A DNA stretch of 64,000 nt, from NCBI RefSeq assembly GCF_031453675.1, contig NZ_JAVIZX010000001.1, positions 4,114,001 to 4,178,000 on the forward strand. The letters are read 5' to 3'. The DNA is from Paracidovorax wautersii (GTDB lineage: Bacteria; Pseudomonadota; Gammaproteobacteria; Burkholderiales; Burkholderiaceae_C). The translations under genes and the position numbers were made by a program. Below are positions 37,281 to 48,393 of the stretch, piece by piece (position 1 is the stretch's first letter; each line of letters starts with the position of its first letter). The notes beneath the pieces were generated by a model. That model did no database searches, had not been told where the DNA came from, and saw only the letters and a list, made by a program, of their open reading frames with translations.

Positions 37281-37560
37281 CTCGCGGGCCAATCAAAGAC
37301 ACGGCCTTCCCCGGCAAGGCACGGGCGCGTGCCCGAGCGGCCTTCCATCGATCTGTCGTCTGGCAATGCATCCGGTTCGATGAACGAGGTGAGCGAAGCC
37401 TCGACCGTCCCGGAGTCCGCATCACCCAGCACACAAGGCGCAGCCCGCTTCATTGCCCTTGACGAGCGATCACAACGGATGGTGCGGACGCTCGGCACAA
37501 GCCTATTTCGGATCCCCGTTAGGGCTCTGCTCTTCCGTACCCGCCCGGCCCATGCAAGGC

Positions 37561-37593
37561 AAAAAAAAGCGCCGCAACAAGTGCGGCGCTTTT
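37561..37593 (-). terminator. Intrinsic terminator, probably the original tRNA-His terminator
   Basis: Minus strand: AAAAGCGCCGC, 7-nt loop, GCGGCGC, then eight T. Stem GCGCCGC/GCGGCGC. It lies 8 bp beyond the left attachment repeat on the host side and is oriented to end minus-strand transcription, the direction of tRNA-His. In the uninterrupted chromosome it would directly follow that tRNA. Confidence 0.85.
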
Positions 37594-37600
37594 CATTTCT

Positions 37601-37617
37601 TGGGGTGGCTGATGGGG
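37601..37617. repeat. Left attachment site (direct repeat of the tRNA-His 3' end)
   Basis: TGGGGTGGCTGATGGGG, identical to 48317-48333, which is the last 17 nt (with CCA) of tRNA-His on the minus strand. Exact repeats of a tRNA 3' end at the far end of an integrase-bearing segment mark the integration site. Confidence 0.9.
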
Positions 37618-37810
37618 GACCATTGGCCACCTGCGAACCCCAGTGTTTTCGCGGCTTTCCGGCCGGTGCGACACGGGTCTGGGATACAGATTGTGTGACA
37701 ACATGAATCCGCCGACAACCCCGGGCAAGCCGACGCGGCATCGACTGGTTGCACGGTGACAGCTGCTCCTAGGCGCGACTGGGATGGGTCGCACGCAATT
37801 CAGACAATGG

Positions 37811-37836
37811 TACTCATAGCCCGTGGACTCATTGTC
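37811..37836 (+). promoter_or_regulatory. Tandem C-box operator of the restriction-modification controller
   Basis: Two 11-bp half-operators, TACTCATAGCC (37811-37821) and GACTCATTGTC (37826-37836), separated by CGTG. The 11-4-11 layout with ACT..AGTC-like arms and the CGTG spacer closely follows the tandem operator I recall for C.Esp1396I (GACTTATAGTC, CGTG, TGATTATAGTC). It ends 19 bp before the C-gene ATG. The two sites allow activation at low and repression at high C-protein level. Confidence 0.8.
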
Positions 37837-37855
37837 ATCAATCAGAGCCAATTGG

Positions 37856-38080
37856 ATGATGCAGTCGCCCGACCATCACGCCGATTTAGTTCAGTTCGGA
37901 CAACGCTTGCGAGCCCTTCGCGCAGCGAAAGGCTTCTCTCAGGAAGCACTCGCCCTGTCGTCTGGGCTTGACCGAAGTTATGTAGGCGGAGTTGAACGAG
38001 GCCAGCGAAACGTGAGCCTTGTGAACATACTCAAGCTCGCGACTGCTCTCAAGGTTGAACCACGGGAGCTATTCAGTTGA
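37856..38080 (+). CDS. Controller (C) protein of a restriction-modification system, XRE-type HTH
   Basis: 74 residues from ATG 37856 (a second ATG follows at once). A single helix-turn-helix: FGQRLRALRAAKGFSQEALA, LSSGLDRSYVGGVERGQRNV, SLVNILKLATALKVEPRELF. The SYVGGVERGQRN stretch is the recognition helix of C proteins such as C.AhdI and C.Esp1396I. It would time expression of the nuclease so that methylation comes first after entry. The operator lies directly upstream and the nuclease start overlaps its stop. A GTG at 37823 would add 11 residues but lies in the operator. Confidence 0.88.
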   Translation: MMQSPDHHADLVQFGQRLRALRAAKGFSQEALALSSGLDRSYVGGVERGQRNVSLVNILKLATALKVEPRELFS

Positions 38081-39021
38081 CAGTAACGCCAGCCACCGCC
38101 GAACGCATTCTACAAGCTGATGCGCAGCGAGTTATCGACGAGATAAACGCATTCACCTCCGAAACGTTTAAGACCAGAGGGGGGCGCCTTGGAAGCGGCA
38201 TGGGCAGCCTAATCGAAGCGATGTGGGTCTACTACATGAATAGGGTGCTCCAGAACGAAGGCGGCGAAGCTCAACAATGCGAAATTGCGTGGTTACAAGA
38301 CCATGAGCCGGCCGATTTCGCCTGCCTGACTCGCGGCGCCACTTGGGACCCTGCAGCACGACTCGGCGAGTTATTCCGCATTGAAGCAAAGTCGATGAAC
38401 ATCGGCGTAGATGAAGCCAAGGGACACTTCACCAACTTGCGCAGCGAAACTCGAGCCAATGACCAACTCTTAGTCTTAGTCTGGTCCTGGACTTCAATTG
38501 CCAATCAGTACTTCTGGCCTCGCATCCACGATTACTTTTTGGGACCTGCTCAGCCGATAATAGAACTTCGGGATGCACTACACCGTCAACGGGGCGGAAC
38601 TTTCGTTGACCCCCAAAATTGCCCGGATGGTTGCGTTCCCGGCGCATGCACTCACGTAGGCGAACCATTAAACGCTGCTGGAAAGCGGGAGCGCCGGTCA
38701 GGGCCGAAAACGTGTAAGCCAGCCAACGTTGAATATGCGGCCAATTTTGGCGGCCTTATTCGAATGCTAAAAACAGACAACGACTCGGCCCGCGAGCGCT
38801 TCCGAGAGCTTAGACGGGTTAATCCGGTGGCGCACCGTTATATTTCATTTATTCACAGACACTACCCCACAGAAGAAGTAAATCAGTATCGCAAAGCAGA
38901 GTGGCAAACAGCGCTAAGACGTGCAGGTCTGCCTGCAAATGGCCAAAGTGCCATTGATGCGAATTTGGCACTTCGCCAACACTGCCCGACCTATCAGGAC
39001 CTGCTAAAGGATACTTTCTAG
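38077..39021 (+). CDS. Probable type II restriction endonuclease, PD-(D/E)XK-like
   Basis: 314 residues from a TTG at 38077 that overlaps the C-gene stop (TTGA); no ATG occurs until residue 45. I do not recognise a named family. An active site of PD-(D/E)XK type is visible: a helix with Glu (GSLIEAMWVYYMNRVL), an Asp in EPADFACLTRG, and the core FRIEAKSM (E-x-K, about residue 108). A Cys-rich stretch follows (NCPDGCVPGACTH, KTCKP), possibly structural zinc. Its position, a C-protein overlap plus a facing methyltransferase and specificity subunit, makes the restriction role likely. It is transcribed with the C gene and ends face to face with the specificity gene. Confidence 0.75.
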   Translation: MTVTPATAERILQADAQRVIDEINAFTSETFKTRGGRLGSGMGSLIEAMWVYYMNRVLQNEGGEAQQCEIAWLQDHEPADFACLTRGATWDPAARLGELFRIEAKSMNIGVDEAKGHFTNLRSETRANDQLLVLVWSWTSIANQYFWPRIHDYFLGPAQPIIELRDALHRQRGGTFVDPQNCPDGCVPGACTHVGEPLNAAGKRERRSGPKTCKPANVEYAANFGGLIRMLKTDNDSARERFRELRRVNPVAHRYISFIHRHYPTEEVNQYRKAEWQTALRRAGLPANGQSAIDANLALRQHCPTYQDLLKDTF

Positions 39022-39040
39022 TACGCATTAGCATCGTACT
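39020..39040. terminator. Short hairpin between convergent nuclease and specificity genes
   Basis: AGTACG, 9-nt loop, CGTACT, starting inside the nuclease stop codon. The 6-bp stem lacks a clear T-tract on either strand, so it would be a weak bidirectional terminator at best. Confidence 0.4.
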
Positions 39041-39072
39041 TAGGGATTTAAGGGCCGTCTTAGCCTGTGGAC

Positions 39073-39756
39073 TCAGTTGGGCGTATCGTCGAGACCGCCA
39101 ATAGCTTTCATCAGCGCGTCGAGTTGTTGCTCAGGAAGTTCCTCTAGCCTTTGACGAAGGCCCCTCAATTCTTGGTCCGTAGCCTCTAGTTGTCGTGCGA
39201 TTTGCTGCTGTATTGACAATGGCGGCAACGGAACTTTGATGCTGAGCAGGTCATCAGTTGCCATGCGCGGCAACGAGGCACCTACACGAAACTTTTCCAC
39301 CAAGCGCGACACGAAGGGCGAAGCAATGATATGCCGAACATATCGTGCGTTCACCCGAGACGCTATTGGAACAAGCACAATAAATTCACCTGAGCAAATC
39401 CCATCGGCAGGCTCTCCATCTACCAAATAGACCTTATTCAACTCTGGCCTAAGACGGCCGAAGAGAACATCGCCGGTTCTAAAAATTTTGGAGCGAGACT
39501 TAATACTCTTGGCCGCTCTGGGTTCGAAATCCACCAACTCCCCCGTCCGGGCACGAACGTTTTCAAGTCCAAGATAAGAAATTTGTAGCTCGCCGAGCGT
39601 CTGAGGGTCAACTGCACCCTTTCTTTCCGACACAAGTTGCCGAAGTTCGACCATTTCATGGACCGAACTCGGGGAGTCCTCCGCTCCGAAGAAAAATGAA
39701 GGTGTCCATCGTCCTGACCTGACAAGATTTGAATGGTCGATAGTAATACAACGCAT
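39073..39756 (-). CDS. HsdS-like DNA specificity subunit with one target-recognition domain
   Basis: 227 residues, half the size of a type I HsdS. One target-recognition domain: SYLGLENVRARTGELVDFEP, FRTGDVLFGRLRPELNKVYL, GICSGEFIVLVP and the end GASLPRMATDDLLSIKVPLP. A conserved helical spacer follows (PLSIQQQIARQLEATDQELR). Two copies would pair head to tail and read a symmetric, gapped target, as in AhdI-type methyltransferases. The start ATG overlaps the methyltransferase stop by one base (TAATG). It is the second gene of a minus-strand pair. Confidence 0.88.
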   Translation of the reverse strand: MRCITIDHSNLVRSGRWTPSFFFGAEDSPSSVHEMVELRQLVSERKGAVDPQTLGELQISYLGLENVRARTGELVDFEPRAAKSIKSRSKIFRTGDVLFGRLRPELNKVYLVDGEPADGICSGEFIVLVPIASRVNARYVRHIIASPFVSRLVEKFRVGASLPRMATDDLLSIKVPLPPLSIQQQIARQLEATDQELRGLRQRLEELPEQQLDALMKAIGGLDDTPN

Positions 39757-41354
39757 TACCAGCCCTCCTCAGCAATGAAATCTTGGAATTGATTTAACAG
39801 CTCACCCAAGTCAGAGCGGGAACTCCTACGTCCACTAGCATCGTATCCAACGTCTGAAACTTCACTCAAGAATACCTTCCTGCCCGGGTCAGGCTCTTCG
39901 CCAGGCCGAAGTTTCGTTAGTATCAACACGCTTGTCTTGATATTTGCCCCGAATGGCGAGAATGTATCGGATGGCAAACTGACGATGGCGCGAATCACAG
40001 CACGCTCGACCAACCAATCTCGAACGTACTGGGTGCTTTTATTGCTGAGCACGCCATCCGGAATCACAATGGCAAGCCGGCCACCTGGCTTTAAGAGCTG
40101 GAGGCACCTTTCTATAGCAACAATTTCGAGAGAAATGGTGCTTTTGCGGTCCAACGCTAATTCAAATGGACCAAATTGATGCAGCGCATCCGCCGGCAAG
40201 TCGACTCCAAACGGAGGATTGGTAGTCACCAAGTCAAAGGTTTCCCGATACAAGTCCGGATAGTTTTCAAATGGCAACAGTGCATCCGTGCAGCGGATAT
40301 TGCTATGCCCATCACCATGGAGCCGCATGTCCGTCATTGCAATCCGCACCATGCGGTCGCTCTTTTCGATTCCGTGCAGGCGGGTGAATGCGAACTCATG
40401 AAACAGCTTGTCGGCTTTTCCGTGTGACTTGCGCACACAGTCCAATGCCGAAGTAAGAAAGTGCCCCGAGCCGCAGAATGGGTCAATCACCAGCTCGCGG
40501 ACATTTGGACTCATCATTCGAACAATCAGGTCAATGACCTCCTTCGGAGTGAAATACTGTCCCATACCGGAGCGCACGGCGGGCTGCAAAACGTTTTGAA
40601 ACGCACGTCCTTTTATGTCGATTGGCGAAGAGGATATGTCGTAGTGCTGCAGAAGCTCTGTCGCTCTAACAATAGCCGCACTCGACAACTGGAGAGTCTC
40701 TTTAAATACTCCTCGAGAACGGTCGTACGACGGAATTTTGTTCGAGAAAATCGCTTTATCGTCGCTTATTGCTGCATCATAGAGCCGACGAATTTCAGCC
40801 GCACATTCCTCAACGCTGCATCGCCCCGACCGCTGAAAGACGACCTCCCCCGAACGGTTGGAATTTTCTTCATCGAACAGCTTCGCATACACCAGTTTGC
40901 ATATTTCCTCAAGCGCTTCCGGGGCATGTAATCCATCAATGTCACGAAAGGCGCTGTGAATTTCAAATAAAAGATTTTCGACGCGCTGGGTGAGCGGCCT
41001 TAGAGATGATTTAGCAATCTTTTCAGAAGGCAAAAGAACGCTGGAGCTGTCCAAATTTGCAACCAGGTCAAAATCACCTGTTCTAAAACTCTTTCTTAGA
41101 ACTCTTACTATTTTATAGTCTTCACTCACCAAGGCGCCAACGCTCATGGTAGACGACGTCCGAAGGGTATCTTTCAGATAGTCCTCGGCTTCCTTGTAGG
41201 AAGCATTTGCAAAGGCAAACGCGAGATACTTTGTGGCCCGCTCGTTCTGGACGGTGAAGATTTCGAAGGCCTCTCTTTGTGCCTCCTTGAAGACAAGGTG
41301 AGTCGGAGGAACACTGAGTACCTCTGAAAGTTGCACTGCAATCTTATTGCTCAT
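39756..41354 (-). CDS. HsdM-like N6-adenine DNA methyltransferase
   Basis: 532 residues. The N-terminal 230 residues are helical and unlike the nuclease domain of fused enzymes. The gamma-class methyltransferase core then has GQYFTPKEVIDLIVRMMSP, the SAM loop VIDPFCGSGHFLTSALDC (motif I), the catalytic TNPPFG (motif IV, NPPF), and GGRLAIVIPDGVLSNKST. This is the modification subunit of a type I-like methyltransferase that needs the HsdS partner encoded immediately downstream. It should protect the host from the linked nuclease. An 11-bp palindrome 28 bp upstream of its start may be a C-protein repressor site. Confidence 0.9.
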   Translation of the reverse strand: MSNKIAVQLSEVLSVPPTHLVFKEAQREAFEIFTVQNERATKYLAFAFANASYKEAEDYLKDTLRTSSTMSVGALVSEDYKIVRVLRKSFRTGDFDLVANLDSSSVLLPSEKIAKSSLRPLTQRVENLLFEIHSAFRDIDGLHAPEALEEICKLVYAKLFDEENSNRSGEVVFQRSGRCSVEECAAEIRRLYDAAISDDKAIFSNKIPSYDRSRGVFKETLQLSSAAIVRATELLQHYDISSSPIDIKGRAFQNVLQPAVRSGMGQYFTPKEVIDLIVRMMSPNVRELVIDPFCGSGHFLTSALDCVRKSHGKADKLFHEFAFTRLHGIEKSDRMVRIAMTDMRLHGDGHSNIRCTDALLPFENYPDLYRETFDLVTTNPPFGVDLPADALHQFGPFELALDRKSTISLEIVAIERCLQLLKPGGRLAIVIPDGVLSNKSTQYVRDWLVERAVIRAIVSLPSDTFSPFGANIKTSVLILTKLRPGEEPDPGRKVFLSEVSDVGYDASGRRSSRSDLGELLNQFQDFIAEEGW

Positions 41355-41381
41355 TTAAGACGTTCAGTCGTTCTCAATGAA

Positions 41382-41392
41382 GACAGTCTGTC
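41382..41392. promoter_or_regulatory. Palindrome upstream of the methyltransferase gene, candidate C-protein site
   Basis: GACAG-T-CTGTC, a perfect 5-bp dyad. It has the same GAC..GTC ends and 11-bp length as the right half of the C-box operator. In C-protein systems a single site near the methyltransferase start mediates its repression. Confidence 0.55.
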
Positions 41393-41514
41393 ATAAAAGT
41401 TCGGGCTTGTCTACGAGGCTGGGCCCCGCCAGCTCTAGGTGCTTGGCGCGCCATCGCGATTGAAGCGCTCCACTGGCTGGGGGTTGCCAGTTATTGCTTC
41501 CTCAATTTGGTCTG

Positions 41515-41535
41515 CGAGCCCAGTTTTTGGGCTCG
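41515..41535. repeat. Perfect 8-bp inverted repeat in the element's central gap
   Basis: CGAGCCCA, loop GTTTT, TGGGCTCG. It lies in the 500-bp gap between the restriction cargo and the mobilization genes. It could be a terminator for one side (no T-tract) or part of the transfer origin. Confidence 0.45.
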
Positions 41536-41855
41536 ATGAGGTGACCCACGCGTTCGACACCGCCACTGGTGCACGGTGGTCTCATCTTGAACCTCGTCAG
41601 TCACTCATACCTGGTGCCTACACGGCTTGTCCATCAACTTTTTGGAGAAGCCGAAATGAAGCCTTCTATCCTGCCCAGGCAGGCCCTGAGAACGATACAC
41701 ACCCCTGCAATCTTTGATAGCGGGTGTCAAACGCCGGGGAACCGCGCCAATGCTGGCTTTGCGCGGTCCACGGCTCCGAATGAAGCGGTCCACGTTTGTG
41801 GCCCTCTGGCCAGCTTGCCCAGTGTTGGCGCGGCGTCGGGCCTGGGGAGCCCGCG

Positions 41856-42209
41856 ATGAGCGAGCGCAGCCGGTTCATCAAGGTGCGCGTGAGCGAGAAC
41901 GAGCACAAGGCGCTACGCCAGCGAGCCGACGCACAAGGCGTGACCATCTCCGAGCATGTGCGCGCCACCGTGACGGCGGTGCACCAATCGCTGGACGTGG
42001 CCGCCGAGCTGGCGGCGCTGCGCAGCCAGGTGCGGCAGACGCCAGCGCCAGCGGCGACGCAGGGCGACAACGCCGGCACTGACCAGCGCGAGATGCTGCT
42101 GTTGCTGCGCGAGCTGGCAGCGGCGCGTGACGCGCAGATTCTGGCGCGCGTCCGAGCGCAGCTGGCCCCGCGCGTCGGCAACCCTCAGCAGCGCGGAGGT
42201 GTGGCATGA
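41856..42209 (+). CDS. Ribbon-helix-helix relaxosome accessory protein (TraJ/MobC/TrwA-like)
   Basis: 117 residues from ATG 41856. The N-terminal ribbon-helix-helix (RFIKVRVSENEHKALRQRAD, GVTISEHVRATV) matches DNA-binding accessory proteins of conjugation that bind oriT and help the relaxase. A helical C-terminal half with a coiled-coil pattern follows. It is the first gene of a tight cluster (4-bp overlap with the next gene) that ends with the relaxase, and the repeated 10-mer upstream would be a natural binding site. Confidence 0.8.
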   Translation: MSERSRFIKVRVSENEHKALRQRADAQGVTISEHVRATVTAVHQSLDVAAELAALRSQVRQTPAPAATQGDNAGTDQREMLLLLRELAAARDAQILARVRAQLAPRVGNPQQRGGVA

Positions 42210-42541
42210 AGACGCACGACGCATTCCTTCGCCACCTGTTCGGCGCAGTCGACCGCGCGGTGGTCTGGACGGTGCTCTCCGTGGTGCTGTCCGCCGTAAC
42301 GTGGACCGCCGTCTGGGAGCGCGGCCTGGGCTTGCCGGTCCTGGACGGCTGGCGTGTGCTCGGCCTCGCGCTGCTCGGGCGGGAGACCGACCGCACGGCG
42401 CTGACGCTGCTTGTGCTGTGCGCCCTCGTCGGCGTCATGGGCGCCGCCGTGGTGGGCGGCTGGCTGTTCCGCCGCTGGCAGCGCCGGGCAGAACTCGATG
42501 TGATGCGCCTGCGCGGCGCCCGGTGGGAGGGCGACCGATGA
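42206..42541 (+). CDS. Small two-helix membrane protein of the mobilization module
   Basis: 111 residues with two hydrophobic segments (about 16-36 and 62-90, LTLLVLCALVGVMGAAVVGG) and a basic cytoplasmic end (RRWQRRAELDVMRLRGARWE). I do not recognise a family. It overlaps its neighbours on both sides by a few bases. Its place before the coupling protein gene, whose product lacks the N-terminal membrane helices normal for VirD4/TraD, suggests that it supplies the membrane anchor as a separate polypeptide. Confidence 0.7.
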   Translation: MKTHDAFLRHLFGAVDRAVVWTVLSVVLSAVTWTAVWERGLGLPVLDGWRVLGLALLGRETDRTALTLLVLCALVGVMGAAVVGGWLFRRWQRRAELDVMRLRGARWEGDR

Positions 42542-43812
42542 TGCAAGCGGCCTGGGAGCGCTTCTGCTCGTGGCGAGCGCAAGCGCGCAACCCCGAGCCC
42601 ATGTCCGGCGGACATCGGCTCCTGACGCTCGGCGGCCTGCCCTGGCCCGTCGAGCTGGAGACCCTGCACCTGCTATTGGCCGGCACCACGGGTGCGGGGA
42701 AGAGCACGCTCGTCGAAGAGCTGCTGGACGGCATCGGGGAGCGTGGTGAGAGAACCGTCGTGTGCGACCCGAACGGTAGCTTCGTGCGCCGGTTCGCCAA
42801 AGAAGGTGACCGACTGCTGAACCCCTTTGACGCTCGCACGGAAGGCTGGACCGTATTCAACGAGCTGCGCGCGGACTTCGACGCCGACCGCCTCGCCGCC
42901 AGCATCGTGCCGGCCGGGCATGGCGAGTCTGCGCCCTGGCATCACTACGCCCAGGTACTGCTGGCGGAAGTGCTGCGCGCCTTGGTGCGCAGCGGAGAGA
43001 CGACGACCGAGCGCCTGCTTCACTGGTGCACCAGTGCGCCGGCCCGCGAGCTGGGCGCGATGCTGGCGGGCACGCCGGCGGCGGGCTTGTTCGACGAGGG
43101 GGCGGACAAAGCGCTGGCCAGCACGCGGTTCGTCTTGACCGCCCATCTGTCACCGCACCGCTTCATCAAACCCGGCAGCTTCAGCCTTCGGACTTGGCTG
43201 GAGCACGAAAGCGGAAGTCTGTTCATGACATGGCGCGCCGATATGCAAGCGGCGCTGGCACCGCTGCTGGCGACTTGGGCGGACATCACCACCAATGCGG
43301 TGCTGACGTTGCCGCCCGACCCCGCTCGGCGCGTGTGGCTCGTGCTCGACGAGTTGGCCGCGCTCGGCAAGTTGAATGGTCTGGAGATGGGTCTGACGCT
43401 CGGCCGCAAACATGGCTTGTGCGTGGTGGCAGGCTTGCAAAGCACGGCCCAGCTGGACCGGCTGTATGGCCGCGAGTCGGCCGTCGTGCTGAGGGCGTGC
43501 TTTCGCAACTTGGCGGTGCTGGCGATTGCGAAGAGCGACCCGGCCACGGCGGATGAACTCTCCCGCGCCCTCGGCGAGCGCGAGGTGTTGCGCCACGAGC
43601 TGAGCCGCAGCAACGGCGCCAGCGGCCTGGGCGAATCACAAAGCCTACGGCATGCCCAGGAGCGCTTGGTGATGGCCAGCGAAATCGCTGGCCTGCCGAA
43701 CCTCGCCGGCTATCTGGCGATGGCCGGTGATGAGCCGGTGCGCCGGCTGCGCCTGACGCCGCAGGCCCGCGAGGACGTGACCGAGGCCTTCGTGCCGGAG
43801 GCCGCATGCTGA
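42538..43812 (+). CDS. Type IV coupling protein (TraD/TrwB/VirD4-like ATPase), soluble form
   Basis: 424 residues from ATG 42538. Walker A AGTTGAGKSTLVEELLDG (about 44-54), DPNGSFVRRF, Walker B VWLVLDELAALGKL, and the C-terminal RecA-like ending GLGESQSLRHAQERLVMASE. It would feed relaxase-bound DNA to a secretion channel. The usual N-terminal transmembrane pair is absent here, and the preceding gene encodes a two-helix protein. It overlaps that gene by 4 bp and the relaxase gene by 7 bp. No channel genes are in the element. Confidence 0.85.
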   Translation: MMQAAWERFCSWRAQARNPEPMSGGHRLLTLGGLPWPVELETLHLLLAGTTGAGKSTLVEELLDGIGERGERTVVCDPNGSFVRRFAKEGDRLLNPFDARTEGWTVFNELRADFDADRLAASIVPAGHGESAPWHHYAQVLLAEVLRALVRSGETTTERLLHWCTSAPARELGAMLAGTPAAGLFDEGADKALASTRFVLTAHLSPHRFIKPGSFSLRTWLEHESGSLFMTWRADMQAALAPLLATWADITTNAVLTLPPDPARRVWLVLDELAALGKLNGLEMGLTLGRKHGLCVVAGLQSTAQLDRLYGRESAVVLRACFRNLAVLAIAKSDPATADELSRALGEREVLRHELSRSNGASGLGESQSLRHAQERLVMASEIAGLPNLAGYLAMAGDEPVRRLRLTPQAREDVTEAFVPEAAC

Positions 43813-46436
43813 CGCTTGCCAAAGTTGTTTCCGCTGCGTCGGCCGCGAGCTACTACGAGGGCGGCGACGACTATTACAGCGAGGACGGGCGCGCGCCCTC
43901 GGCCTGGTGGGGCACTGGCGCCGACGCGCTGGGCCTGCATGGTGAGGTGGACAGCGGTGACTTCCGTGCGCTGCTGGAGGGTCGGCTACAGGATGGGACG
44001 GAGATGCATCGCGGCGGCGAAGGCCGCACCGCCGGCCTGGACCTGACATTCAGCGCACCCAAGTCCCTGAGCATGCAAGCCCTTATCGGCGGCTCGACAG
44101 AACTGCTCGACGCGCATCAGCAGGCCGTCACCCACGCGCTGCGGTATGTGCAGGCCGAACTGGCCGCGTACCGCAGCACGCAGAATGGCGAGACGGTCTC
44201 GGTGCGCAGTCAGAACGTGGTCGCCGCCCGGTTCGACCACGACTTGAGCCGCGAGCTGGACCCGCAAGTTCACACGCACTGCGTCCTGTTGAACGTGACG
44301 CAGCGGCCGGACGGCCAATGGCGAGCACTCGATGCACACGCGCTGTACGAGCAGCAGAAGCTGCTTGGCATCTTGTATCGAGCCGAGCTGGCCAAGCGCG
44401 TACAGGAGCTGGGCTACGGCATCCGTCGCACACACCAGGACGGCCGGTTCGAGCTGGCGCACATTACCCGCGAGCAGGTCGAGGCGTTCAGCACGCGCAG
44501 TCGCGCCATCGACTTGGCCTTGGCGGCGAAGGGCGAGAGCCGCGCGACCGCCTCGGCCGAGATGCGCGAAATCGCCGGCTTGAGCACGCGGCGGGCCAAG
44601 GACGCCAGCGTACGGCGCGACGAATTGCGCGAGACATGGAACGCCAAGGCGGCAGCGCTTGGTGTGAACTGGATGCCCGAACTGCGCATGGCGGCGCTCG
44701 AACGCGCGGAAGTCGAGACGCGCACCCGCGAGTCGGTGGATTTCGCCGTGGCGCACCTGACCGAGCGCAGCGCAATCGTCAGCAGGCTGGCCATCGCGCA
44801 GGAGGCGCTGGCGCACGGCACCGGCCATTTGGGCCTCGCCGACGTGCAGGTCGACATCGACCGCCGGTTGGCCGGCGGTGAGATGCTGGCGTCGGCCGAT
44901 GGGCGGCGACTCACGACACCAGGCGCGCAGGCGATGGAGCAGGAGCTGCTGGACATCGAGCGGCGCGGCAAGGAGGCGTTGACGACGGCCATCTGGGAGC
45001 CGCAGCAAGGGCGGCTCTTCGAGGCCTCCGCCCCTGCGCCGGCTCCAGCACCAGCGATTGCCGTGCACCTGACAGCCGGCCAGCGCAAGGCGGCGGAGTT
45101 GGTGCTGTCCACCCGCAATCGCGTCGTGGGCGTGCAGGGGCTCGCAGGCACCGGCAAGACGGCGATGCTGCGCACGGTGTCCGCGAACCTGGGCGACGGG
45201 TTCAAGGCCGTTGGACTGGCACCTTCGGCTGCGGCTGCTCGCGAGCTGTCGGCTGCTGGCTTCGAGGCAATGACCATCGCGGGCTTCCTTGCCAGTGGCC
45301 GTGCACTGGACGAGCGGACCCTGGTGGTCGTGGATGAAGCCGGCATGGTGAGCTTGCGCGACATGCACGCGCTGATGGCGGCCGTGGAGGAAGTCGGCGC
45401 TCGCGCAGTGCTGGTCGGCGACACCGGTCAGCTCAAAGCCGTGGAAGCCGGGGCGCCGTTCCGCCAGCTTCAAGAGCAAGGCATGGCGGTAGTTCGGATG
45501 GCCGACATCTTGCGCCAGCAGAACGACAAGTTGCGGGCCGCCGTGGTGGATGCGGCAGAAGGCAAGGTCAAGGACTCGCTGGAGAAGCTGGAGGCGACGG
45601 TTGCCGAGGTGCCGCACTCGACCGAACGCTACGAGCGCATCGCCAGGGACTACGCATCGCGCCTGCCCGAAGAACGGCTGCAGACTTTGGCGGTGGCGGG
45701 CACGAACCGCGCCAGGCAGGCCATCAACCAGCGCATTCGCCAGCGGCTCGGTCTGGCAGGCTCCGGCGTCGCCGTCGATGTGCTGGAGGGTCGCGACCTG
45801 ACAAGGGCGCAGGTGCAAAGCTCGCTGAGCTACGCGGCCGGCGACATCGTCGAGGCGCTGCGGCACTACGACAGCATTGGACTGCGGCGTGGCGACACGG
45901 CGGAAGTCGTCGAGACCGCGCCCGGCTGCATCACGCTGCGCCGGCAAGATGGTCAGACAGTGCAGTGGCGGCCGACCGCGATGCCGCATGTGGCCGTGCA
46001 TCGTGCAGAGCAACGCGAGGTCGCGGCCGGCGACCGCATCCGGTTCACGGCGAACGACTACGGGCTTGGCGTCGTCAACGGCCAGGTCGGCACGGTCGAG
46101 TCCATCGACCTCGCCGCCCGTGAGCTGACGGTCAACGTCGGGCTGGAGCGCTCGCTGACGCTGGACATGAAGCGACCGCTGCGGGTGGACCATGCCTACT
46201 GCACGACGGTGCATGCCGCGCAAGGCCAGACCTGCGACCGGGTGTTGGTGGACGCCGACGTGAGCGGGGCGATGGCCAATCAAAGTCTCTACTACGTCGC
46301 AATCAGCCGTGCCCGCCACGGCGTGACGCTCTACACCGACGACAAAGAACTGCTGCCTAGGGCGATGTCGCGGCTGGACATCAAGCAGGCGGCGCTTGAC
46401 CTGCATCGACCATCGAGCCGTGGGATGTCGATGTGA
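43806..46436 (+). CDS. MobF-family relaxase-helicase (TrwC/TraI-like)
   Basis: 876 residues. The N-terminal relaxase (about 1-300) has the two-tyrosine start typical of MobF (AASYYEGGDDYYSEDG), the metal site HUH motif in LDPQVHTHCVLLNVTQ, and the conserved FSAPKSLSMQ. The helicase half (about 425-860) has Walker A GLAGTGKTAMLRT, VVVDEAGMVSLRDM, VLVGDTGQLKAVEAG and the RecD2-like end YCTTVHAAQGQTCDRV then YVAISRARHG. It nicks oriT, stays bound to the 5' end and unwinds the strand to be moved. It is the last gene of the cluster, followed by a terminator. Confidence 0.93.
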   Translation: MLTLAKVVSAASAASYYEGGDDYYSEDGRAPSAWWGTGADALGLHGEVDSGDFRALLEGRLQDGTEMHRGGEGRTAGLDLTFSAPKSLSMQALIGGSTELLDAHQQAVTHALRYVQAELAAYRSTQNGETVSVRSQNVVAARFDHDLSRELDPQVHTHCVLLNVTQRPDGQWRALDAHALYEQQKLLGILYRAELAKRVQELGYGIRRTHQDGRFELAHITREQVEAFSTRSRAIDLALAAKGESRATASAEMREIAGLSTRRAKDASVRRDELRETWNAKAAALGVNWMPELRMAALERAEVETRTRESVDFAVAHLTERSAIVSRLAIAQEALAHGTGHLGLADVQVDIDRRLAGGEMLASADGRRLTTPGAQAMEQELLDIERRGKEALTTAIWEPQQGRLFEASAPAPAPAPAIAVHLTAGQRKAAELVLSTRNRVVGVQGLAGTGKTAMLRTVSANLGDGFKAVGLAPSAAAARELSAAGFEAMTIAGFLASGRALDERTLVVVDEAGMVSLRDMHALMAAVEEVGARAVLVGDTGQLKAVEAGAPFRQLQEQGMAVVRMADILRQQNDKLRAAVVDAAEGKVKDSLEKLEATVAEVPHSTERYERIARDYASRLPEERLQTLAVAGTNRARQAINQRIRQRLGLAGSGVAVDVLEGRDLTRAQVQSSLSYAAGDIVEALRHYDSIGLRRGDTAEVVETAPGCITLRRQDGQTVQWRPTAMPHVAVHRAEQREVAAGDRIRFTANDYGLGVVNGQVGTVESIDLAARELTVNVGLERSLTLDMKRPLRVDHAYCTTVHAAQGQTCDRVLVDADVSGAMANQSLYYVAISRARHGVTLYTDDKELLPRAMSRLDIKQAALDLHRPSSRGMSM

Positions 46437-46473: not shown

Positions 46474-48211
46474 TCAGTCGTCGCCCTTCAAGCTCACAGA
46501 GCCGCGCCCCGGCTCCCAGGGCCGCGCGGGGATGGCAGCGAACTTCACGCGCGAGAAGTGCCTGGCCAGGCGATTGAATGGCAGGTCGGAGCCGTAGCCG
46601 TCCGTCACGTTGCCATCGCCCGTGGTGTGGCCCAGCATTCGCTGCAGGTACTTCGACGGGACGCCAGCCGCTTCGAGCATGTCTTTCATGCAGTGGCGGA
46701 ACGAGTAAAGCACCTTGCGCTTGTCGATGATGCCGAGAGCGCGCTTGTAGCGACCGAAGAACTTCGAGAACGACCCGGACAGCTTGCCGTGGAAGTCCTT
46801 CTTCAACGTCGGGAAGAGCACGGTAGCCTTGCGAGCGCGCAGCCATTCGACGTAGCGCAGCAGGCCGAGGTCGATGAGTTCCTGGGCAATCGGCACGCGC
46901 CGGATGGACACCGCGTTCTTGAGGGTACGGCGGTGGGACTCGGGCACCTCGTCGTCGTCGAACAAGTCGAGGTCGTCGTCGCAGGGGCGGTCGATGATGT
47001 TCAGGTACCAGCCCAGCTTCGGGTCATTCACGAGGTCGCTCAGCGCCAGGCCCGCCAGTTCTTCGGGCCGGGCGCCGGTGTAGTACATCAGCACCGGAAT
47101 CCAGTAGCTGGCCTCGCCGGACTGCCCTCTGGAGCGCTTATGCTGCGTGAAGACCTCGGAGCCGAAAATCGTCTGCAGGTCGGTTGCGTCGAAGGGCAAC
47201 CGGCGCTTCTTGCGCTTCTTGGCGCCGCTCTCCTTGACGCCGAGCGTGCCGGTCGCGGGGTTCACGCGCAGGACGTGCTTGCCGACCGCAATCTTGTAGA
47301 TGCCCCGGATTTTGGTCAGGCGCTCGTTGAGCGTGGGCACCCCGAGGCGGGGCCGCATGTCCTCCACGAAAGCGGTCATCAGCTCAGGCGTCACGTCACC
47401 CGGCATATCGACGCCCTGGGTCGCGGCGAAGCGCCGAAGGTCGCGCCAAGCTGTCTGCGAGGCGATGGTCGTCGGCTTCGGGGCGGTTCTCGACGTAATC
47501 GCGCCACTTCTCAAACACCTTGTCCCAGGTGGGCAGGTCCGGGTCCACCGCCACGCGCTCCGGTGCGATGACCTGCAGCGGATGCACCGCCGGTGGCGCG
47601 ACCTTGTCCGTATCGACGATGTCGCCGCGTTGCCGAGTGAGTTGGTGGTCGAGCGTTTCGACGACAGTGCGCAGGAAGGCGTAGCTGGCGCGCTTGGCCT
47701 CATCCTCGTCGGGATTGAAGTCGAGCCCGCAGAGGAATAGGAAGCCGTGCAGCGCCGGGAAGATGTTCAGGCTCTTGCCCTGCGCCAGCATGCGCCCGAG
47801 TTCGGCGCGCTGTGTGGTGAGCTGTTCGCCGAGTTCGTCGAACTCTGCATCGTCAAGGCCAGCCTCACGTCGGCTGTCGTCGTTCTGCAGCACCTGACGC
47901 ACCCAGAACTTGGCGACCGCCTGCAGTTGCTCGTCGTCGAGCCTGGAGATGCGCTTCGCGGCCAGCGAGGCCCGGCTCAGCTCCAGTTCCTGGCGCTTCT
48001 GCTGGAACTCGGCGTCGATGCGCGTGTTCTCGGCCCGTGCCAGTTCCTTGAACGCGCGACGGTCCGACGTGCCCAGGCTACGGGTGATGTGCTCTTGATG
48101 AGCGGGATATGCCGCGCGGATGGCGGCAGGGATGCGGCGACGCACGTACAGGTTGCCGTGCTTGCCGCGTGCATAAACGTTTTCGGAAACTACTCTCAAG
48201 GTCTGCTCCAC
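46474..48211 (-). pseudogene. Tyrosine recombinase (integrase), frameshifted
   Basis: N-terminal half starts at GTG 48211 (VSENVYARGKHGNLYVRRRI, an Arm-binding start) and reads to WDKVFEKWRDYVENRP. The catalytic half continues in the next frame from KPTTIASQTAWRDLRRFAAT to 46474. The catalytic residues are all present: Arg in TGARPEELAGLALSD, RH in YSFRHCMKDML, HxxR-like end LGHTTGDGNVTDGYG with the Tyr. The switch lies at a run of four G (C on the coding strand) at 47480-47483; one base fewer restores a protein of 578 residues. If real, the enzyme is inactive. It lies next to tRNA-His, as an integrase should. Confidence 0.8.
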
Positions 48212-48316
48212 AAAGGGTTGTGTGACAGACCGTGTAGCAACCGGCTGTTTAGCCTAAAGCGACAAGGCCTTGATTCCTAAGGAAATCAAGGCCTTGCGCG
48301 TACAACTAGAGTTCTT

Positions 48317-48393
48317 TGGGGTGGCTGATGGGGCTCGAACCCACGACAACAGGAATCACAATCCTGGACTCTACCAACTGAGCTACAGCCACC
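48317..48393 (-). tRNA. tRNA-His (anticodon GTG), right attachment site of the element
   Basis: 77 nt including the encoded extra G(-1) and CCA. Acceptor stem GTGGCTG/CAGCCAC, D-arm GCTC..GAGT, anticodon arm CAGGA-TTGTGAT-TCCTG (GTG), T-arm GTGGG-TTCGAGC-CCCAT. The last 17 nt (48317-48333) are repeated at 37601, the left end of the inserted element, so the tRNA gene was rebuilt by the element's own copy of the 3' end. Its terminator now lies 10.7 kb away. Confidence 0.97.

Follow-up and report, generated by a model that had tools for sequence, protein, structure and literature searches.

Results

Gene content of the locus

In the stretch of the Paracidovorax wautersii genome analysed here (contig NZ_JAVIZX010000001.1, positions 4,114,001 to 4,178,000; 64,000 nucleotides, hereafter the window), positions 37811-41392 hold a restriction–modification (R-M) locus composed of a tandem operator, the controller gene C, the overlapping endonuclease gene R, and the methyltransferase genes M and S, with the C-R and M-S pairs being convergent (Table 1). 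An earlier note on this DNA had described a type II system regulated by a controller and equipped with a split methyltransferase resembling those of type I, including a C protein with a tandem 11-4-11 operator, an overlapping nuclease gene with an E-x-K active site, and facing HsdM-like and half-length, one-domain HsdS-like genes, and had named AhdI as the closest known system. This description is borne out by the data given below, first of all by the PADLOC type II models, which cover the products of R, S, and M nearly from end to end. A promoter consensus search over 37500-41800 gave three matches against 2.8 expected, and so no promoter was assigned.

Methyltransferase subunits

The M protein matches N6_Mtase (7.5e-36), with the motifs DPFCGSG at 291 and NPPF at 379, and is covered over residues 1-532 by the PADLOC model MTase_II PDLC03218 at 1032 bits, the best type I model reaching 180 bits. 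The S protein, the start of which overlaps the M stop, matches Methylase_S (7.3e-8) in one stretch; Specificity_II PDLC03590 covers its residues 1-226 at 401 bits versus 90 bits for the best type I model, and its two best solved relatives are S chains of 398 and 412 amino acids (aa), each with two matching stretches. By these matches, the methyltransferase is made up of a gamma-class M and a separate one-domain S, as in an AhdI-type (type IIH) system. Neither the HsdR motor subunit nor the two-domain HsdS by which type I systems are defined was found here, since S has one domain and R is a protein of 314 aa lacking any motor-domain match.

Nuclease

The R gene starts with a TTG codon overlapping the stop codon of C. 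Residues 4-312 of its product fit the PADLOC type II endonuclease model REase_II PDLC03408 with a score of 643 bits. When R was aligned with its relatives from Vulcaniibacterium gelatinicum (locus L001, 69% identical), Tahibacter harae (L002, 69%), and a viral contig (35%), residues E47, D80, E103, and K105 (E103-A-K105) proved invariant in all four proteins. Such a layout is typical of PD-(D/E)xK nucleases, and the catalytic centre of R is probably of this type, formed by D80, E103, and K105. The PDB search gave nothing meaningful (best values 0.041 for R alone and 0.053 for the alignment), so that no solved structure of an R relative was found.

The earlier note did not recognise the family of the nuclease. 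That this family is an unknown one is not supported, and the idea was rejected on the 643-bit PADLOC match, despite the silence of Pfam, NCBIfam, and PHROGs, which, together with that of the PDB, stays true. A Cys/His cluster (C182, C186, C191, H193, and C213, window positions 38620-38720), which occurs in the three bacterial R proteins and is missing from the aligned viral one, is possibly a metal site.

Controller and its operator

The C protein matches HTH_3 (2.3e-14) and the PADLOC model Control_protein PDLC03664 (137 bits). Its closest solved relative is C.AhdI (1y7y, 116 bits), with which it is identical at 58 of 71 residues, including an unchanged stretch of 22 residues that we take to cover the recognition-helix region. 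The C gene opens with ATG at 37856, a second ATG follows at 37859, and a GTG at 37823 opens within the operator. The operator itself, TACTCATAGCC-CGTG-GACTCATTGTC, fits the C-box pair pattern with three mismatches and is alone in doing so within the window, 0.01 matches being expected from shuffles; its proximal box doubles as a GACN5GTC site. The locus thus has a C.AhdI-type controller, and its tandem operator precedes the C-R genes, which converge with M-S.

In the two bacterial relatives, C is not intact (L001 7780-7995; L002 7700-7995), while R, S, and M are open frames in both. For L001, tblastn with C gave no match at 1e-3, and we recognised by eye a 3′ remnant of C ending at the R start. 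In L002, C residues 16-73 match at 65.5% with the start in another frame; this frame break could be a sequencing error.

Paired sites upstream of M and predicted specificity

Directly upstream of M lie two GACN5GTC sites, GACGTTCAGTC (41359-41369) and GACAGTCTGTC (41382-41392), offset by 23 bp and separated by a gap of 12 bp. The genome of 4.57 Mb has a single occurrence of GACN5GTC-N12-GACN5GTC and two of a reversed control pattern. The 16.9 kb of L001 contain just two GACN5GTC sites, which immediately precede its M gene and are likewise offset by 23 bp; in L002, one exact site occupies the matching place and a site with one mismatch the other. Hence, over the three lineages, five of the six paired sites are exact.

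A whole DNA alignment of the M upstream regions was uninformative, and the sites were compared separately. The half-site bases are identical between the window and L001 at 12/12 positions and between the window and L002 at 11/12, versus 7/22 of the remaining bases in both comparisons (Fisher p 9e-5 for L001 and 1e-3 for L002). We also scanned the 100 bp upstream of M in the three lineages for 832 gapped palindromes (64 half-sites, 13 spacers), excluding the viral contigs L006-L009 because they are near-copies of L001 (99.8-100% over the aligned stretches). A motif passed if it was present in all three lineages and occurred twice in at least two of them; GACN5GTC was the sole motif to pass, and none of 2000 shuffled sets did.

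The M promoters of three lineages thus indicate, indirectly, that the specificity of the system is very probably GACN5GTC. The earlier note had considered the specificity to be possibly new, which this result does not support: the paired motif recurs in two other lineages and equals the AhdI target, as given in excerpts of PMC4081073. We found no literature naming AhdI together with GACNNNNNGTC, perhaps only owing to site notation.

Carrier element

The C, R, M, and S genes are the A+T-richer cargo of a 10.7-kb element of mobilizable type which is bounded by 18-bp direct repeats and inserted in tRNA-His (Table 1). The G+C content is 51.3% for the C-to-M genes, 69.0% for the mobilization genes, and 65.6-68.2% for the flanking chromosome, as the earlier note had anticipated in calling the cargo richer in A+T than both the host and the mobilization module. 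Among the traits of integrative mobilizable elements, a relaxase, a coupling protein, repeats, and the tRNA-His are found and the integrase is split between frames. Since the integrase is spread over two overlapping reading frames, the element may be “grounded”, unless this split is a sequencing error.

The joined flanks of the element were searched in 17 genus genomes, including its own, with the repeat at 300-317 of the query. In 10 of the 16 congeners (G001, G004-G009, G012, G416, and G417), the best match begins left of the repeat, and in G001, G005, G006, and G417 it does so by at least 18 bases and runs to 518-623; in the other six it begins at 300-301, so that the left side is not shown. 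In the congeners matched left of the repeat, these alignments point to an empty site.

Among 150 family genomes, one other, G558, has relaxase matches at E <= 1e-200, and has two of them. They lie in two 14-kb stretches (L024 and L025, modules 11.6 kb apart). In these, the coupling protein is matched at 56% and the relaxase at 47%, and searches at 1e-3 for C, R, S, M, and the integrase found nothing. The existence of related mobilization modules devoid of the R-M cargo fits the separate acquisition of this cargo that the earlier note had thought probable.

Table 1. Positions of the R-M genes, regulatory sites, carrier element and viral relatives of R (window positions unless a locus is named)
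Feature	Position	Strand	Evidence or remark
C operator, tandem	37811..37836	+	distal box 37811-37821, proximal box 37826-37836, 11-4-11
C, controller protein, 74 aa	37856..38080	+	HTH_3, PADLOC Control_protein, C.AhdI match
R, restriction endonuclease, 314 aa	38077..39021	+	PADLOC REase_II PDLC03408; invariant residues
S, one-domain (half-length) specificity subunit, 227 aa	39073..39756	-	Methylase_S; PADLOC Specificity_II PDLC03590
M, gamma-class adenine methyltransferase subunit, 532 aa	39756..41354	-	N6_Mtase; PADLOC MTase_II PDLC03218
M-promoter GACN5GTC site, nearer to M	41359..41369	n/a	exact in L001; one mismatch in L002
M-promoter GACN5GTC site, farther from M	41382..41392	n/a	exact at matching place in L001 and L002
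18-bp direct repeat, element left end	37600..37617	n/a	repeat search, joined-flank comparison
18-bp direct repeat, element right end	48316..48333	n/a	at 3′ end of tRNA-His (48317-48392, minus strand)
NikA-like mobilization protein	41796..42209	+	PF21983 1.9e-7; open reading frame (ORF) as listed, true start may be downstream
TrwB-like coupling protein	42538..43812	+	PF10412 8.3e-101
TrwC-like relaxase-helicase	43806..46436	+	PF08751 1.5e-82
Tyrosine integrase, two domains in different frames	46474..48211 (47396-48211 and 46474-47703)	-	DUF6538 in one ORF, Phage_integrase in the other
Stand-alone viral relatives of R	L004 3968-4669; L026 2968-3669; L011 3358-4110		

Distribution of relatives

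Within the collections searched, R is rare. It was found in its own genome only, both in a phylum sample of 398 genomes and in a set of 21 genomes, and M at E <= 1e-60 was likewise confined to its own genome among 150; 72,556 plasmid records gave no match to R. Peptide patterns of R, a method that finds close relatives only, revealed two loci in genome_contigs. Phage records contributed three relatives, all from Synechococcus phages and 32.5% identical, and viral contigs four; the same four were obtained with the alignment as query, and one further with a Synechococcus phage protein as query.

An R-S-M set is also found in the IMG/VR viral contigs L006-L009, where the same paired sites precede M. 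Over the stretches that were aligned, these contigs are 99.8-100% identical to L001, and they are therefore not independent lineages. In L001, the set lies among phage-like genes (ORFs judged by eye).

Two of the Synechococcus phage relatives of R sit between the photosystem II D2 gene and the next gene. One stand-alone viral relative matches the PADLOC model of R (PDLC03408) at 95 bits, and the relative in L011 keeps the catalytic residues. One can guess at a homing-type role for these stand-alone proteins.

Discussion

An R-M system of the AhdI kind

Taken as a whole, the locus is best explained as a type II (subtype IIH) R-M system of the AhdI kind, to which we assign a probability of about 0.9. 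If AhdI is taken as the model, a tetramer of two M and two S subunits would read the symmetric GAC-N5-GTC through its two identical recognition domains and methylate adenine on both strands. The nuclease R seems to be a separate type IIP-like endonuclease, which would cut the same site when unmethylated, most likely as GACNNN/NNGTC. Binding of C to its tandem operator would first activate and then repress the C-R operon, so that restriction would appear after methylation, and M-S expression would be limited as the paired GACN5GTC sites of the M promoter become methylated. Such a scheme follows excerpts on AhdI, according to which polymerase is recruited by a C dimer at the distal box and blocked by another at the proximal box (PMC5333194), and M represses its own promoter by methylating sites within it (PMC5333194, PMC12707154). 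For the M promoter described here, the specificity of AhdI combined with methylation feedback would be the economical reading.

Several points weigh against this explanation. The direct sequence comparison with AhdI covers C and not R, M, or S, and the names of the PADLOC models do not reveal which enzymes they contain. The argument from the sites involves three independent lineages only, with one of the six sites mismatched; moreover, the pass rule of the motif scan was fixed after the pattern had been seen, and shuffling removes the shared ancestry of the sequences, an objection which is answered by the low identity of the bases outside the half-sites. The host is not short of GACN5GTC, its ratio to GACN8GTC being the 11th of the 17 genus genomes, and this frequency neither supports nor excludes activity. 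Nor is any conclusion drawn from the counts against the reversed pattern, because this pattern is a poor null: GACN5GTC occurs 586 times and the reversed pattern 2484 times in the host genome, and the records holding L006, L008, L009, and L001 have 10, 16, 4, and 357 versus 14, 31, 10, and 811, respectively. Finally, the C-box consensus GACT-tat-AGTC (excerpted from PMC4824078) itself contains GACN5GTC, and therefore the overlap of this site with the proximal box may be incidental.

The same property of the consensus is the starting point for the alternative that the paired sites upstream of M bind C instead of being methylation targets, so that C represses M and the sites do not reveal the specificity of the enzyme; a precedent is Esp1396I, where a C dimer represses the M promoter, as stated in part of PMC11736437. 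The gap between the M-promoter sites is, however, 12 bp versus 4 bp in the C operator, L001 and L002 keep these sites though their C is not intact, and the published control of M in AhdI, so far as the excerpts describe it, is exerted by M itself. We therefore regard C binding at these sites as very unlikely.

Also very unlikely is the suggestion of the earlier note that the system, though AhdI-like, differs in specificity and perhaps cuts in a new mode. It is true that S is only 52-54% identical to the S proteins of the two relatives, that recognition domains can change specificity, and that R has no solved relative, but the pair of GACN5GTC sites in front of M has no second copy in the genome and is seen in each of the three lineages. 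The idea of a partial type I system (HsdM-HsdS without HsdR) lying by chance beside an unrelated nuclease gene can practically be dismissed, since M and S do match many type I models but at scores clearly below those of the type II models, and both L001 and L002 again combine R with a converging M-S pair.

Returning to the AhdI-type explanation, one can ask what the GACN5GTC site within the proximal C box might mean. If the C operator were methylated, C binding could be adjusted directly, and the expression of restriction would be linked to the activity of the methyltransferase; a single sequence would then serve as operator box, methylation target, and cut site. Perhaps the methylation loop at the M promoter is the more durable control in the AhdI-like family, because both other lineages have retained the M-promoter sites but no longer have an intact C. 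We offer these suggestions tentatively and consider them rather improbable.

As the methyltransferase of an AhdI-type system marks its own control region, the promoter would allow the specificity of the system to be predicted. For annotation, the locus can be treated as an ordinary type II system whose target is now predicted, and the rare R-S-M set to which it belongs appears both on an element of mobilizable type and in viral contigs.

Comparison with known systems

What is new here is one more member of the AhdI kind, not a new kind. In the excerpted text of PMC4081073, AhdI of Aeromonas hydrophila is a type IIP-like endonuclease cutting GACNNN/NNGTC, accompanied by a 2M+2S methyltransferase and once called type IIH. 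Besides the closeness of the C proteins, the locus shares with AhdI the convergent order of C-R and M-S (PMC5333194, in part), and the calculated masses of M (59.6 kDa) and S (25.4 kDa) fit the 60- and 25-kDa subunits which form M2S2 in M.AhdI (PMC2878638, in part). The GACN5GTC sites at the M promoter also match the methylation control of M.AhdI described in those excerpts. In contrast to AhdI, the present locus resides on an element in tRNA-His, in an unrelated genus.

The loci of Vulcaniibacterium gelatinicum and Tahibacter harae resemble it in R (69% identical), S (52-54%), and M (63-64%), in the R-S-M order, and in the paired sites upstream of M, but differ in that C is intact in neither and the Vulcaniibacterium type also occurs in viral contigs. 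M.PshAI and M.BsaBI are listed together with M.AhdI as consisting of two M and two one-domain S subunits in a table excerpted from PMC3874165; the likeness is that of the split methyltransferase type as listed, and their half-sites or spacing are different (GAC N4 GTC and GAT N4 ATC). Esp1396I is likewise a C-controlled convergent type II system, but there the M promoter is repressed by C, whereas in AhdI, and probably in the system described here, this is done by M.

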